Positions 23,082 to 31,088 of a DNA stretch of 64,000 nucleotides are shown in pieces. The position numbers and the translations under genes are program-made. Each line of letters starts with the position of its first letter. Within the stretch, counting starts at the first letter, position 1. This DNA is from Gluconacetobacter aggeris (GTDB lineage: Bacteria > Pseudomonadota > Alphaproteobacteria > Acetobacterales > Acetobacteraceae). The notes beneath the pieces were generated by a model. It had not been told where the DNA came from. It worked only from the letters and a program-made list of their open reading frames with translations, and searched no databases. The DNA lies in the NCBI RefSeq assembly GCF_014174395.1, contig NZ_JABEQD010000005.1:62001-126000 (forward strand). The letters are read 5' to 3'.

Positions 23082-23419
23082 GACCGGGTTCTGGACCATG
23101 GCAAGGGCGGCACGCAAGGGGAAAGGGCCAAATCCCCGTTAAGGAGAAAGCCTGCCTTGAGTGCCGGTCTGGCGAGCGGGAGCAGCCCAAGGGGTCGCGG
23201 CCGGTGTGTGTGTCCCGGGTATCGGGGCGGCATCGACCACGCCGGGTCAGAAGCGCGTGACGTGAGGGGGAAACCTGCCTTGAGGGCCGCTCTGGCGAGC
23301 GGGAGCGGCCCACAGGGCCGCGGCCGGCGTGCGTTCCCGAGCACCGGAGCGGAGCGGCCTTGATGGCCGTGAGCACCGGCGCGCAGGGAACGCGCGTCGG
23401 ACCGCCGCCAGAGTGGCTC
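23082..23419. other. 338-bp intergenic region between phyR and uup
   Basis: No credible gene. It holds a decayed half-copy (23148-23219) and almost all of one full copy (23271-23432) of the structured repeat. The short frames reading MLTAIKAAPLRCS are translations of the repeat core and recur at its second copy. Confidence 0.8.
23148..23219. repeat. decayed 5' half-copy of the structured repeat
   Basis: About 70 nt closely match the 5' half of the full element at 23271-23341, in the same orientation and 123 nt away (shared blocks CTGCCTTGAG, TCTGGCGAGCGGGAGC, CGCGGCCGG). The 3' half and outer stem partner are missing, and the internal hairpin is mispaired, as expected of a degenerating copy. 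Confidence 0.75.
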
Positions 23420-23432
23420 TCAAGGCAGGTTT
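23271..23432. repeat. structured palindromic repeat, copy 1
   Basis: A 162-nt element. The outer arms 23271-23296 and 23407-23432 form a 26-bp stem with 24 Watson-Crick and two G-T pairs. Inside are hairpin GCGGCCC-ACA-GGGCCGC and a second stem GCGTTCCC/GGGAACGC. That stem encloses a core of about 37 nt, starting GAGCACCGGAGCGGAGCGGC, which is identical in copy 2 (30810-30973). The right arm covers the last codons of phyR. Confidence 0.85.
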
Positions 23433-24157
23433 TGGGGGCCGCCGGTGACTGCCTGGTAGGTCGCGATGGCGAGGGTCATCGGTTCGAACGGTTTGGTGAC
23501 GACGAAGGCGGGTTCGATGGCCTCGCCCGTCAGCAGGCGTTCGGGATAGGCGGTGACGAAGATGACCGGTGCCATGTGATGGCGCAGGATGCTGGCCACG
23601 GCGTTTGCGCCGTCGCCGCCCGTACCCAGATTGATGTCCGCGAGGATCAGGCCCGGCTTGGTCTGGCGGGCCAGTTCGATGGCGTCGGCCTCGGTCGCGG
23701 CCACGCCGGCGACCTGATGGCCGCACCAGCGGACCAGGTCCTCGATATCCATCGCGATGATCGGCTCGTCCTCGATGATCAGGATGGAGGTCTGGGCGAC
23801 CTTGCGCAGGCCGGCATGGGCGCGGGCGAGGATTTCGGCGGCTTCTGCCTCGCCCAGGTCCAGGACCTGCGCGGCATCGGCGATCGTGAGTTCTTCCAGT
23901 GATGTCAGAAGCAGGAGCTTGCGCTCCAGAATGTTCAGGGCTTCGGCCTCAGAGGCCGGTGCGGGCCTGAACCGCCGCGAGATCCACTGGTACAGGCATT
24001 GCCGTGCCGGCAAGGGCCCGGCTTCCGCCATGGCCAGGCCCCGCAGGCTTTCGGCCACCAGGAGATCGCCGCGTGGCTGACTGCCGGTCAGGGCACGGGC
24101 ATATCGCCTGGCATAGGGAAGGGCCCGGATCAGATCCTGCCGCCGCGAGAGGGGCAT
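23420..24157 (-). CDS. phyR: general stress response anti-anti-sigma regulator PhyR
   Basis: A 245-residue PhyR. Residues 1-120 mimic an ECF sigma factor (RRQDLIRALPYARRYARALT, LLLLTSLEELTIADAAQVLD). Residues 122-240 are a receiver domain with acidic IIEDEP, phospho-acceptor Asp174 in LILADINLG and the conserved Lys in VVTKPFEP. Phosphorylated PhyR sequesters NepR and frees the sigma factor EcfG; both genes lie just across the divergent spacer. The last codons and the stop lie within the right arm of the repeat at 23271-23432, so the C-terminus may have been altered by that element. Confidence 0.95.
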   Translation of the reverse strand: MPLSRRQDLIRALPYARRYARALTGSQPRGDLLVAESLRGLAMAEAGPLPARQCLYQWISRRFRPAPASEAEALNILERKLLLLTSLEELTIADAAQVLDLGEAEAAEILARAHAGLRKVAQTSILIIEDEPIIAMDIEDLVRWCGHQVAGVAATEADAIELARQTKPGLILADINLGTGGDGANAVASILRHHMAPVIFVTAYPERLLTGEAIEPAFVVTKPFEPMTLAIATYQAVTGGPQNLP

Positions 24158-24518: not shown

Positions 24519-25094
24519 ATGGCAAATAATTTCCATGACCAGGTCATCGCGATCCTCCCGCGGCTGCGCGTTCAGGCACTTGCCCTGACACGGAACCGAA
24601 CGATGGCTGAGGACCTGGTGCAGGATGCCGTGTGCAATGCGCTGGCCGCCCAGGACAGTTTCATCCCCGGGACCAATTTTTCTGCCTGGATGCACCGCAT
24701 CCTCCGTAACCGCTTCATTTCCGACCTGCGCAAGCGGCGGGAGACCACCGATATCGAGGATATTCCCGCGTCGGTGCTGGCGACCACGGCCCCGCATGAG
24801 GACCGGCTGGCGCTGAAGGACCTGGCGATGGCACTGGACCGCCTGCCCGAAGACCAGCGCGAGGCCCTGATCATGGTGGTGCTGCACGGCATGAGCTACG
24901 AGCATCTGGCCGAGGCGACTGGCTGCGCGGTCGGCACGGCCAAGAGCCGGGTCTTCCGTGCCCGCCGCCAACTGGAAAGCTGGATGATCGGAGAGGACCA
25001 GGAATCGCCGCAGATCAAGGCGCGGATGGCCCGCATGCGTGGCCTGCTGGGCGCGCGGATGGGGACGCGCGAGGCTGAAGCGACACGTCCCTGA
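24519..25094 (+). CDS. ecfG: ECF sigma factor, EcfG-type general stress response sigma
   Basis: A 191-residue ECF sigma factor. Region 2 runs VIAILPRLRVQALALTRNRT through GTNFSAWMHRILRNRFISDL, and region 4 runs LDRLPEDQREALIMVVLHGM through CAVGTAKSRVFRARRQLESW. The position opposite phyR and before nepR identifies it as the EcfG (ECF15) class. It transcribes general stress genes once NepR is removed by phosphorylated PhyR. GAGGAAC lies just before the ATG. The C-terminal 30 residues are a basic tail. Confidence 0.92.
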   Translation: MANNFHDQVIAILPRLRVQALALTRNRTMAEDLVQDAVCNALAAQDSFIPGTNFSAWMHRILRNRFISDLRKRRETTDIEDIPASVLATTAPHEDRLALKDLAMALDRLPEDQREALIMVVLHGMSYEHLAEATGCAVGTAKSRVFRARRQLESWMIGEDQESPQIKARMARMRGLLGARMGTREAEATRP

Positions 25095-27332: not shown

Positions 27333-29087
27333 ATGAGCGGTGACAAAATGGTGATGCGTGCCTGGACACGGGCGCAGTCGCGCCTGGGACGAAGGCAGGC
27401 GATGCCCGTGATGGCCTGCGGCATGCTGGCAGGGCTGGTGGCCGTCGGCCAGGCATGGTGTGTGGCATCCATCCTCGCGCGGGGGCTGGTCGGGCCCGGT
27501 ACGGCCGCATGGCCCGGTGCCGGCCAGTTGCTGGCCGCCCTGGCGGGGCTGGCCCTGCTGCGCGCCCTGCTGCTGGCCCAGGGCGACGTTTCGGCGGCCC
27601 GGGCCGGGCGTGGTGCCCGCGCGCGGCTGCGCGACGAGGTACTGGGGGCCATCCTGCGGGGCGGGCCGGCGCTGTTGCGGCGTCGGCACAGCGCGGAACT
27701 GACGGCGCTGGCCGTCGACCGGATCGAGGCGCTGGACGGGTTCTTCGCGCGCTGGATTCCGGCCTCGGTCCTGTGGATCGCGGTTCCGGGGCTGATCGCG
27801 GCGCTGGCCGCGCTGGTGCAGCCGGGGGCGGGGCTGATCATGATCGTGTGTGGCCTAGCCGTGCCGGTGGGGCAGGCCGTCTTCGGCATCGGCGCCGCCG
27901 TGGCGTCGCGCAACCAGTTTCTGGCCATGACCCGGTTGCAGGCCCGGTTCCTCGATCGGGTGCGCGGCATTGCCACCATCGTCCTGCTGAACCGGGCCGA
28001 TGACGAGGCAAGGCGGCTGGCCGATGCCGCCGACGAACTGCGCCGGCGGACCATGAAGGTGCTGCGGGTGGCGTTTCTGTCCTCGGCATCGATCGATTGC
28101 GCGATGGTGGTGGCGCTGGTGCTGATCGTGGTGCGTGACGGCGGGATGGTGCAGGTTCTGCGCCATGGCGGCGCGTCGGCCGCGCTGGCCGATGCGGTGG
28201 CGCGCAGCCTGTTCGTGCTGCTGCTGGTGCCGGAATTCTTCGCCCCCCTGCGCGCGCTGGCCCTGGCCTATCAGGATCGCGCCCATGCGTCCGGCGCCGC
28301 GTCGGCGATGGGGGACCTGCCGGAGGGGACGGTCTCGGCCGTTACGGCACGGGACGCGGTGCCCGTTCTCTCGGGGAATGGGGTATCGGTGGCTTTCGAG
28401 AACGTCACCTTCGCGTGGGATGCCGCGCGTGGGCCGGTCTTCGAAAAGCTGAGCTTCACCGTCCCGGCGGGGGAGATCCTGACGCTGGTGGGGCCTTCCG
28501 GCGCCGGCAAATCGACGATCATCGAGATGCTGCTGGGCTTTATCGTGCCGGATAGCGGCCGTGTGCTGGTTGGCGGCGTGGACCTGGCTACCATGGCGCC
28601 GGCGGCCCAATCGGGGCTGATATCGTGGATCGGGCAGAAACCGGTGCTGTTTGCCGGCACGCTGCGCGAGAATATTCTGTTCGCCCGGCCCGATGCCGAC
28701 GAGGATGCGTTGCGCGCGGCCCTGCGCGCGGCGGCGGTCGACCGCTTTGCCGCGGATCTGCCCGAGGGGCTGGATACGCCGATCGGCGAAGGCGGATTCG
28801 GCCTGTCGGGTGGGCAGGCGCAGCGGGTGGCGATTGCGCGGGCTTATCTGAAGGATGCGCCGCTGCTGCTGCTGGATGAGCCGACGGCGCATCTGGACCC
28901 GGAGACCGAAAGCGAGATCTTCGCCAGCCTGCGCATTCTGGCACGGGGGCGGACGGTGATCCTGTCCAGCCATGCGGCGGGGGTGCGGGCATTTGCCGGT
29001 CCATGCCTCGACCTGGGAAAAATACGCTGTTCGCAGCCGGGCGCCGGCCTGATGGCGCCTGTCGAGGAGGGGCATGCCCATGTCTGA
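27333..29087 (+). CDS. cydD: thiol reductant ABC exporter subunit CydD
   Basis: A 584-residue half-transporter. The N-terminal membrane domain has about six helices (from ACGMLAGLVAVGQAWCVASI to about residue 310), with the CydD-typical ILLNRADDEARRLADAADEL coupling segment. The ATPase has GPSGAGKSTIIEMLL, signature LSGGQAQRVAIARAYL and Walker B LLLLDEPTAHLD. CydDC exports cysteine and glutathione to the periplasm and is needed for cytochrome bd and c assembly. cydD and cydC overlap by 14 nt. No cydAB oxidase genes are in the window. Confidence 0.92.
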   Translation: MSGDKMVMRAWTRAQSRLGRRQAMPVMACGMLAGLVAVGQAWCVASILARGLVGPGTAAWPGAGQLLAALAGLALLRALLLAQGDVSAARAGRGARARLRDEVLGAILRGGPALLRRRHSAELTALAVDRIEALDGFFARWIPASVLWIAVPGLIAALAALVQPGAGLIMIVCGLAVPVGQAVFGIGAAVASRNQFLAMTRLQARFLDRVRGIATIVLLNRADDEARRLADAADELRRRTMKVLRVAFLSSASIDCAMVVALVLIVVRDGGMVQVLRHGGASAALADAVARSLFVLLLVPEFFAPLRALALAYQDRAHASGAASAMGDLPEGTVSAVTARDAVPVLSGNGVSVAFENVTFAWDAARGPVFEKLSFTVPAGEILTLVGPSGAGKSTIIEMLLGFIVPDSGRVLVGGVDLATMAPAAQSGLISWIGQKPVLFAGTLRENILFARPDADEDALRAALRAAAVDRFAADLPEGLDTPIGEGGFGLSGGQAQRVAIARAYLKDAPLLLLDEPTAHLDPETESEIFASLRILARGRTVILSSHAAGVRAFAGPCLDLGKIRCSQPGAGLMAPVEEGHAHV

Positions 29088-30771
29088 CAGATCCCTGTCC
29101 GGCCGGGCGGCCGAGGATCGTGACGGCCTGGCGCCGGTCCTGCGTATCGTGGGGTTGTGGAAGCGCCGCGCGCCGCGACTGGCGGCGGGTGGCCTGTTGT
29201 CGCTGCTGGCGCTGCTGGCGGGGCTGGTGCTGATGCGTGGGGCCGGCGCGCGCCTGGCCGGGCTTGCCTTTGGCGGCGCGGTGGCGGGGTTGGTACTGCT
29301 GCGTGTATCGGGTGTGGCGCGTGTGGTGCTGCGTTATGTCGAGCGCCTGGTCACGCATGATGCGATGTTCCGGGCGCTGGCCGATATCCGCGTCTGGTTC
29401 TTTCGCCGCCTCGCGGGCGGGGCGGCGGCCGGGCTGGGATTCCGCCGCGCGGGCGACCTGCTGTCGCGCCTGGTGTCGGATGTCGAGGCGCTGGACGGGC
29501 TTTATCTGCGGATTATGGTTCCGCTGGCCGGCGCGTGCCTGGTCCTGCCTTTCCTGGTGCTGGCGATCGGGCCTGTCGATCCGGTGCTGGCGGTGCTCGT
29601 CGGCGGGCTGTTCGTGGTCGGCGCCTTTGTGCTGCCGCTGGCGGCGGCACTGATGGGGCGGCGCGAGGCCGCGATCCTGACGCATCGTCTGGCCGACCTG
29701 CGGATCGGGGTGTTGGATCTGGTCACCGGGCTGCGTGAGATCCGGGCCTTTGGGGCTGAAGGACGCATGTTGTCGCACGCGCGGGCGCGCGATGCCGCGC
29801 TGCTGCAAGGGCAGGCGCGGCAGGCGCGGTTGCTGGCGGTGATGGGCGGGGCATCCTATCTGTGCGGTCAGGCGGCGGTGCTGGCGGTGCTGGCCGCGAT
29901 CCTGGGTGCCGGGCTGGGGCCGATCCCGGCGGTGCGTGGGGTGGGGCTGCTGTTTCTTGTGATCGCGGGTTTCGAGAGTGCCGGTGGCCTGACGCGGGCC
30001 GGGGCGCTGGCCGGGGGGATCAGCCGTGCGGCGGCGCGGGTGGTTGCCGTTGGCGAGAGCGACGGGCCGGCGGTCAGCGTGGGGACGCGGCCGGCCCCGG
30101 CGGATACCGATATCCGCTTCGAGCAGGTCTCGTTCCGCTGGCAGGCGGATCGGGCAGCCGTATTCGACGGGCTGAATCTGGAGATCCGGCAGGGAGCGCG
30201 GGTGGCGATCCTGGGGCCGTCGGGGATCGGCAAATCCTCGCTTGCGGCGCTGCTGCTGAAGGTGGCGTCGCCGTCATCGGGGCGGATCATGCTGGGGGGC
30301 GAGGATCTGGCGACGCTGGAGAGTGGTTCGCTGCGCCAGCGGATGGCGTGGCTGTCTCAGGCCACGCATCTGTTTGCCGATACGATCCGGGCCAATCTGC
30401 TGTTGGGACGGCCCGATGCGACCGAGGCCGATCTGTGGACGGCGCTGGATCGTGCCCAGGTGGGCGATGTGGTCCGCGCGCTGCCCGAGGGGCTGGATGC
30501 CTGGCTGGGCGAGGGCGGCGCGTTGCTCTCGGGTGGCCAGGGGCGGCGGATCGCGCTGGCCCGGACCCTACTCTCCGACGCGCCGATCCTGATCCTGGAC
30601 GAGCCGGCGACCGGGCTGGATGCCGAGACCGAGCGCGAATTCCTGACCACGCTCTATGACGTGACGGCCGGCCGCACGGTGATCCTGATCGCGCATCGGC
30701 TGGTCGGAGTGGAAAAACTGGACCGCGTCTGGCGCCTGTCGGACGGAAAGGCCGTCGCCGCCGCTGTTTAA
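29074..30771 (+). CDS. cydC: thiol reductant ABC exporter subunit CydC
   Basis: A 565-residue half-transporter, the partner of CydD. The membrane domain contains the CydC-typical RVVLRYVERLVTHDAMFRAL and RRAGDLLSRLVSDVEALDGL. The ATPase shows GPSGIGKSSLAALLL, LSGGQGRRIALARTLL and ILILDEPATGLD. Two in-frame ATGs (29074 and 29080) follow the same GGAGG site. The operon ends here; the structured repeat copy 2 begins 38 nt downstream. Confidence 0.92.
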   Translation: MPMSDRSLSGRAAEDRDGLAPVLRIVGLWKRRAPRLAAGGLLSLLALLAGLVLMRGAGARLAGLAFGGAVAGLVLLRVSGVARVVLRYVERLVTHDAMFRALADIRVWFFRRLAGGAAAGLGFRRAGDLLSRLVSDVEALDGLYLRIMVPLAGACLVLPFLVLAIGPVDPVLAVLVGGLFVVGAFVLPLAAALMGRREAAILTHRLADLRIGVLDLVTGLREIRAFGAEGRMLSHARARDAALLQGQARQARLLAVMGGASYLCGQAAVLAVLAAILGAGLGPIPAVRGVGLLFLVIAGFESAGGLTRAGALAGGISRAAARVVAVGESDGPAVSVGTRPAPADTDIRFEQVSFRWQADRAAVFDGLNLEIRQGARVAILGPSGIGKSSLAALLLKVASPSSGRIMLGGEDLATLESGSLRQRMAWLSQATHLFADTIRANLLLGRPDATEADLWTALDRAQVGDVVRALPEGLDAWLGEGGALLSGGQGRRIALARTLLSDAPILILDEPATGLDAETEREFLTTLYDVTAGRTVILIAHRLVGVEKLDRVWRLSDGKAVAAAV

Positions 30772-31088
30772 AGCCGGCGGCTCGCAAATGTCTTCCAAGG
30801 GGCACGCGGGTTTCTGCCCGGAAACGGGGTTCTGGTGAGCGAGAGTGCCGCGCAGCGGCACGGCCGTCGTGTGTTTCCGAGCACCGGAGCGGAGCGGCCT
30901 TGATGGCCGTGAGCATCGAAGCACAGGAAACGCGCGTCGGATCGCCACCAGAACCCCGTTTCCGGGCAGAAACTGTTGACGTGGGGGTGGGGAGGGGGCA
31001 CCAAGGTCCCCTGTCCATATGTCGCTGACTTTCCCGCATTGTTAGCGGCGGATTCATCCGTAAGCCGTTCAAGCAAGGGGATCTGCCG
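30772..31088. other. 317-bp intergenic region after cydC
   Basis: No credible gene. Half of it is copy 2 of the structured repeat (30810-30973). The remaining 115 nt contain the leader of the OmpA-like lipoprotein gene (AAGGGGATC before its ATG). Confidence 0.75.
30810..30973. repeat. structured palindromic repeat, copy 2
   Basis: A 164-nt element with a perfect 28-bp terminal inverted repeat (30810-30837 with 30946-30973). Its sequence differs from the stem of copy 1. Internal hairpin TGCCGC-GCA-GCGGCA replaces GCGGCCC-ACA-GGGCCGC of copy 1 at the same place. The second stem GTTTCC/GGAAAC replaces GTTCCC/GGGAAC. The core of about 37 nt is identical to copy 1. Compensatory changes at all three stems point to selection for, or copying through, secondary structure. 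Confidence 0.88.

Follow-up and report, generated by a model that had tools for sequence, protein, structure and literature searches.

A candidate MITE-like element family of Gluconacetobacter and other Alphaproteobacteria with a fold kept on one strand and an apparent polarity towards stop codons

MITEs are commonly regarded as decayed IS ends with arbitrary filling. The bacterial MITEs of the IS5 family (IS1031 type) resemble the element described here in being short, probably non-coding and multi-copy, in occupying polymorphic sites, and in possessing terminal inverted repeats and a TNA target like those of the full IS of the genus; unlike these MITEs, the element has a core common to a whole class of bacteria despite very different arms, a fold on one strand and, as the compared sites suggest, a fixed polarity to the stop codon of the upstream gene. 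Insertion just behind a stop codon in a single orientation is also characteristic of Tn7, a large transposon that uses one site, at glmS, and a targeting protein; unlike Tn7, the element adjoins many unrelated genes. According to the part of the source available (PMC5896051), QMITE1 and QMITE2 of Coxiella burnetii form long, stable, palindromic predicted RNA structures, QMITE1 has variable ends on a conserved core, and QMITE2 has relatives in Alphaproteobacteria. As far as the description goes, the present element has these traits in common with them, whereas a polarity towards stop codons is not described for the QMITEs in that part of PMC5896051. The GTAG and CGTC REPs, in the available part of PMC3733652, are units of 20-40 bp with stems of 5-13 bp and tags, and the CGTC repeats are missing in Acetobacteraceae; like the element, these REPs are palindromic repeats of Alphaproteobacteria but, unlike them, the element resides in a genome with no RAYT match. 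Neither the core nor the stop polarity is described in the literature covered, mostly outside subscription journals and including the available parts of PMC3733652, PMC2680597, PMC3794950 and PMC5896051; a search of the text of papers with six core strings gave, among the matches listed, only papers that look unrelated by title.

The window, i.e., the whole 64,000-nt stretch of Gluconacetobacter aggeris DNA that was analysed, contains two full-length copies of the element (Table 1). The sequence-only reading had described copy 1 as bounded by a perfect 28-bp terminal inverted repeat, and folding bears this out, with 28 uninterrupted terminal pairs, an MFE of -121.8 kcal/mol (z -14.0) and none of 200 shuffles as stable. 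Copy 2 lies and folds as had been proposed, but its stem, given as 26 bp, comprises 27 terminal pairs when read from the fold, two of them G.U (MFE -138.3, z -12.4, 0/200 shuffles as stable). The side-arm hairpins and the inner stem, GTTTCC/GGAAAC in copy 1 and GTTCCC/GGGAAC in copy 2, are present as described; the identical core is present too, but it measures 39 nt and not about 37 nt. The notion of a two-copy element did not hold, since at least 47 places in the same genome carry it and a truncated tandem unit in the window had also been overlooked. Overall, the earlier observation is confirmed but was understated, and its interpretation is partly supported.

Table 1. Coordinates of the element copies, their parts and the adjoining genes (positions in the window)
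Feature	Position	Strand	Basis
Copy 1, full length	30810..30973	+ (strand of the conserved fold)	fold; 175.1 bits, model R1
Copy 1, left terminal arm	30810..30837	+	28 pairs with 30946-30973
Copy 1, side-arm hairpin	30845..30861	+	sequence, fold
Copy 1, core, 39 nt, the same in copies 1 and 2	30877..30915	+	contains GAGCACCGGAGCG...GTGAGCA
Copy 1, right terminal arm	30946..30973	+	fold
Copy 2, full length	23271..23432	+	fold; 169.7 bits, model R1
Copy 2, side-arm hairpin	23305..23321	+	sequence, fold
Copy 2, core	23337..23375	+	sequence, fold
Truncated tandem unit upstream of copy 2 (left arm, side arm, part of inner stem)	23148..23230	+	
PhyR-family response regulator gene, 3' end overlapping the right end of copy 2	23420..24157	-	
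CydC-like gene, stopping 38 nt before the left end of copy 1	29074..30771	+	

Copy 2 alters the 3' end of the PhyR-family gene, whose stop codon falls within the element and has its last base 13 nt from the element edge; relatives without the full element appear to use a stop codon of their own. A sigma-factor gene (24519-25094) lies near this PhyR-family gene. At the same site, the relative G001 has three truncated units (by reading). Copy 1 is an exception to the rule of right-end stops set out below; tandem copies occupy the orthologous sites of G. tumulicola and G. asukensis (L032 and L033), and the differences between the arms of L033 and those of copy 1 fall at paired positions. ORFs of at least 100 aa overlap both copies in a program-made list; the changing arms argue against a protein encoded by the element.

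Element copies are about 120-170 nt long. The core, with the consensus CGAG(A/C)A(C)CGGAGCG(G/C)AGCG-hairpin-GTGAGCACCGG(A)AGCGCAG, is conserved in distant copies; the inner stem pairs two near-identical motifs, so that short GC helices are repeatedly separated by A.A and G.A mismatches. Forms of ~163 nt have the side arm, which many forms of ~143 nt lack, and the terminal arms are almost wholly different between lineages, yet remain paired. Tandem units occur at several sites, with arrays at L009, L028, L031, L032 and L065 in addition to the truncated units at 23148-23230 and L123 (one in the window, three in G001). In the 30 loci read (of 64 matches, three genomes), the GTGTGTTGAGATTCAGGT arm occurs singly, in shorter arm-only hairpins or as paired element arms, and an IS that could be its autonomous partner was not identified. 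Arm-only hairpins lacking the core, with arms about 30-60 nt apart, were also seen in one other genus (L409, L421, L426, L429 and L431; genomes G581, G585 and G788).

That paired changes in the stems indicate a conserved structure, as had been argued from the two copies, is upheld by the wider family. An RNAalifold structure of 72 aligned copies contains 62 pairs, 44 of which change on both sides; 97.4% of cells pair, versus 84.2% in shuffles, and these 72 copies (alignment A1) come from 84 chosen for having at least 20 terminal pairs, so percentages for the terminal helix are conditional on that choice. Compensatory changes are thus present in the other copies, and, on each of five measures, none of 500 shuffles reaches the observed covariation. 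Shifting the structure by 1-3 columns leaves 34.7-42.0% of cells paired, a comparison that favours the reference structure, as it was derived from the same alignment. In a class-wide alignment (A2; 82 rows at 73 distinct places, nine rows overlapping another row), 59 of the 62 pairs change on both sides, though this alignment, like A4, was fitted to the model.

The fold is not symmetric between strands. The plus-strand fold is stabler than its complement in all 72 copies with RNA parameters (mean -119.6 vs -100.6), in 72/72 with DNA parameters too, and in 69 of 70 distant copies, the last being a weaker test as these copies were selected by a model of the same strand. Cells with G.U outnumber those with A.C by 339 to 39, and by 105 to 38 once the columns in which G.U is the rule are set aside; wobble pairs are kept at set columns (67-134, 69-132 and 92-108). 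The G.U excess and the stabler plus strand together suggest that the plus-strand fold, as RNA or single-stranded DNA, is kept, beyond a mere DNA palindrome; conserved structure as such is strongly supported. A left/right asymmetry of G.A in the arms (12 vs 2 at one column in A1) was inconsistent in A2 and was dropped. Perfect arms might alternatively arise by template-switch repair of quasi-palindromes and not by selection, a process for which the wholesale replacement of arms that are still complementary and the tandem amplifications could be cited; however, such repair gives no reason for a preference for G.U over A.C on one strand and leaves the wobble pairs at set columns unaccounted for, and this origin is considered very unlikely. 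A known Rfam RNA was rejected as an explanation, as no family reaches its gathering score in the window; the sole sub-threshold match over copy 1 is Metazoa_SRP, with 15.6 bits against a cut-off of 70. The element may yet be a non-coding RNA family, as the sequence-only reading had also proposed.

Searches of the same genome, the genus, the family and beyond recover a dispersed family. In the genome of origin, 51 matches, 47 of them not arm-only, represent at least 47 places, a lower bound since 40 of 146 candidates were scored, and four further places (C1:443947, C6:206345, C2:243824 and C8:11088) lie beyond these 51. All 14 genomes of the genus, that of origin included, contain matches (6 to 48 per genome, totals that count element plus flank, as the query included flanking sequence). 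At E 1e-4, a covariance model of the whole element matches 29 of 150 sampled genomes of the family and 13 of 385 sampled Alphaproteobacteria, both including the genome of origin, and a 64-nt core model matches 55 of 398 genomes of the phylum at E 1e-5 (surveys of more than 40 genomes used stricter search filters, with which weak matches are lost). The 55 comprise 21 genomes within the class, including that of origin, and 34 outside, where the best scores are about 37-45 bits; the latter matches are uncertain, and unrelated repeats may be among them. Several of the out-of-class matches printed have the core and layout of the element. Several at L332-L339 combine GCGTAC..GTACGTGAGCA-like cores with a CTGGCAAGGC/GCCGCCAG-like stem and could represent either a remote branch of the family or another repeat altogether. 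The core also occurs in 50 stretches of viral contigs, which may be prophage regions; a phage search gave no match. A plasmid search gave no match at 1e-5 with copy 1 as the query and 36 records with a rhizobial-type copy. As judged from these matches, the element appears to be a dispersed family with dozens of copies per acetic-acid bacterial genome and relatives across Alphaproteobacteria.

Occupancy is polymorphic between species, which, with the small size, is characteristic of MITEs. The copy-2 site is filled in the genome of origin, G001 and G010, altered in G009, and without a full element in ten genomes (G002-G008 and G011-G013, by reading); G005 and G007 retain right-arm-like sequence, so loss is possible there. 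A 20-kb comparison revealed more sites filled in some species and empty in others, and among five further sites compared, S1, S2, S4 and S5 show both a filled and an empty allele and S3 is messy. At S5, four relatives have a stop codon followed by a terminator-like hairpin, and the genome of origin has the element between the two. S1 is empty in the genome of origin and filled in G001 and G010, with three extra junction bases and another difference a few bases on; at S4, the stop codon is conserved in two empty relatives, and at S2 the flanks of the filled and empty alleles have diverged. One copy (L364:1928-2089, genome G007) is inserted in an IS5-type transposase gene and flanked by TAA left and right. 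This locus and L113 are the two scanned IS loci that contain the element, and the L364 copy interrupts the gene and is not part of the IS; no autonomous IS carrying the core was identified among the IS loci scanned.

Full IS of the genus, which we take to be of the IS1031 group of the IS5 family on account of their ends and PF13340 domain, start with GAGCCCGATCCGAAAG or GAGCCTGTTTGGAAAGTC, the GAGCCCGATCCGAAAG group mostly with TNA duplications. The start of ISb, GAGCCTGTTTGGAAAGTC, resembles that of the element copies L053 and L077, GAGCCTGTTTGGAAAT; the match of terminal repeats to the full genus IS is good for this one end type, and other end types, which presumably fit particular transposases, are unmatched. 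Many element copies start with GAGCCTG, the left flank often being TCA and the right flank often TCAG. The ends were compared with 13 IS5-type loci of the genome of origin, which match the element poorly, and with 23 of 28 loci of relatives (five were too short), from which the closer match came. An exact 3-nt duplication accompanies 15 of 17 ISa insertions, 14 of the duplications being TNA (ISb, with boundaries one to three bases off, was excluded from scoring). Among the 76 distinct full-length Gluconacetobacter sites left once copies sharing flanks were removed, 17 have an exact duplication, 15 of them TNA, and the TNA target is frequently found within a CTNAG context. Exact duplications occur at 10 of 43 stop-adjacent sites and at 7 of 22 sites where the nearest stop is more than 20 nt from the right end; the left flank is TCA in 11 of the 43. 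A flank-permutation test on the 72 copies gave 9 duplications versus 5.8 expected (p 0.07), a weak test because many right flanks are TCA. Seven of the 43 stop-adjacent copies have CGNA and not TNA on the left, which the model of an IS5-type MITE does not explain.

The sequence-only reading had considered a REP/MITE-like palindrome mobilised by a transposase encoded elsewhere. The ends, the TNA target, the polymorphic occupancy and the copy inserted in an IS5-type transposase gene speak for the MITE half of this proposal, but not for the REP half. Palindromes of the REP/BIME type moved by a RAYT would likewise be dispersed and mostly located at gene ends; however, a search for the RAYT domain Y1_Tnp (PF01797) found no match in the genome of origin at E 0.001, the control search matching in 5 of 14 genomes, and the length and end structure of the element are unlike those of the REPs in the available part of PMC3733652. 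For this genome, the REP/RAYT reading is contradicted by the absent match, and it is judged extremely improbable altogether.

Genes adjoining the element point to a pronounced polarity. A gene was found to the right of 71 of the 72 aligned copies and lies on the minus strand in 62 of the 71; in 51 of these 62 the gene end falls in the range from 30 nt within the element to 10 nt beyond its edge, and the left-side counterpart is one such ending among 27 plus-strand genes. When exact junctions are considered, coding sequence runs into the right end in 60 of 72 copies, with 29 of the 60 stopping exactly at the edge, and the stop codons within 6 nt of the edge in the 72 copies are TGA in 36 cases, TAA in 6 and TAG in 5. 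At the 76 distinct sites, coding sequence runs into the right end in 56 and into the left end in 12; stops no more than 6 nt from the element end number 43 on the right and 2 on the left, with L023 counted on both sides, so that one-sided stops are right-only versus left-only by 42 to 1 (p 1e-11). The picture recurs at 107 distinct sites from other sources, a few of which could belong to Gluconacetobacter, with coding sequence into the right end in 81 and into the left in 33, stops within 6 nt in 59 and 6, respectively (three sites with both), and one-sided stops 56 to 3 (p 1e-13). Stops were placed by a simple gene caller based on codon usage, with the window as its training set; the calls are cruder for distant and low-GC genomes, where the stop codon often includes the first bases of the element. 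A check independent of the gene caller used NCBI-annotated rhizobial and sphingomonad plasmids (16 of the 36 matches, picked to avoid near-duplicates; 15 annotated), with element ends projected without gaps from partial matches: 9 of the 15 have a stop codon no more than about 15 nt from the right end, 3 have one at the left end (two of these at the right end as well), and 5 have neither. From these gene predictions and annotations, copies tend to adjoin a stop codon directly, nearly always in one orientation, with a polarity that seems nearly invariant.

Part of the adjacency has a simpler origin. Stop codons constitute 65 of 189 (34%) non-coding CTNAG sites in the sequence examined, a baseline counted mostly on loci fetched for holding the element, and target choice therefore explains a good part of the adjacency; the 44 stop-adjacent elements among 76 nevertheless exceed this baseline (p 2e-5). 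Full IS insertions used as a control are stop-adjacent in 5 of 31 distinct cases (3 on one side, 2 on the other), versus 44 of 76 for the element (Fisher p 9e-5). This control is weak: all IS copies are from two genomes, many of them from regions crowded with IS, and coding sequence reaching either end was recognised in only 8 of the 31 cases, including the 5 stop-adjacent ones. Target preference explains part of the stop adjacency and not the polarity. The target triplet does not explain the polarity either, as TGA, TCA and TAA duplications are seen at copies distant from right-end stops. Among copies with exact duplications, 10 have a right-end stop and 1 a left-end stop. Given the orientation, host mRNA of the upstream gene carries the less-folding minus strand, and the kept fold is therefore not the one that the mRNA would form.

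The family is probably, at a probability of roughly 0.6, a miniature, non-coding IS5-type MITE with a conserved strand-specific core that has a putative role. The mobility would be supplied in trans by IS5-family transposases, and different lineages may carry arms fitted to different transposases; the disproportionate share of non-coding CTNAG sites offered by stop codons would account for some of the adjacency. The polarity might then reflect counter-selection of copies facing the other way, which would place the tighter-folding plus strand in host mRNA, and the plus strand itself, as RNA or single-stranded DNA, may serve the element; this combination of selection and an element-serving strand is considered the likeliest. 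Several points count against it. Selection of this kind leaves unsaid why plus-sense RNA should harm, copies with exact duplications are already polar, and, for the MITE reading as such, exact duplications flank just 17 of 76 sites.

A service to the host at gene 3' ends would turn the argument round, the plus strand acting as an antisense terminator, an RNA-processing site or an insulator that protects the upstream gene. The recurrence of right-end stops and polarity across genera with unrelated arms would fit such a service, as would a conserved fold on the strand antisense to the gene and the position of the S5 copy between a stop codon and a terminator-like hairpin (by reading). It is nevertheless unlikely, considering that occupancy is patchy among close species, the annotated host genes are unrelated, no U-run is found in the right flanks printed for the aligned copies and only 29 of 150 sampled family genomes match. 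A strand-specific mobile element that moves as folded single-stranded DNA or via RNA, with transcription or translation orienting its insertion at stop codons, would account for the fold on one strand, for the one-sided stops in both sets of sites (42 to 1 and 56 to 3) and for a polarity that the target triplet, with its TGA, TCA and TAA duplications away from right-end stops, leaves unexplained; yet no Y1 transposase match is found in the genome of origin, and ends, target and duplications resemble the product of a DDE transposase, which makes this route quite improbable.

A bolder reading may be offered tentatively, with the odds against it: the core folding on one strand would be the persisting unit, its terminal repeats swapped to suit whichever transposase is available, and insertion would be oriented by transcription or translation of the host gene, the stop codon serving as a landing pad, throughout the class and possibly the phylum. 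In the element, the filling and the one-strand fold outlast the ends across a class, and behind stop codons the copies share one direction. With this family, two possibilities can be tested directly: that a mobile element of bacteria is able to read the 3' ends of genes, or that one strand of the element does harm within host mRNA. Annotators would gain a model for a repeat that appears as overlapping ORFs and altered protein C-termini. The copy L210:5325-5492 represents a subfamily with GAGGCTGTTGCAAAAG ends, of which the listed copies elsewhere are 92-96% identical; this subfamily has possibly been active recently.
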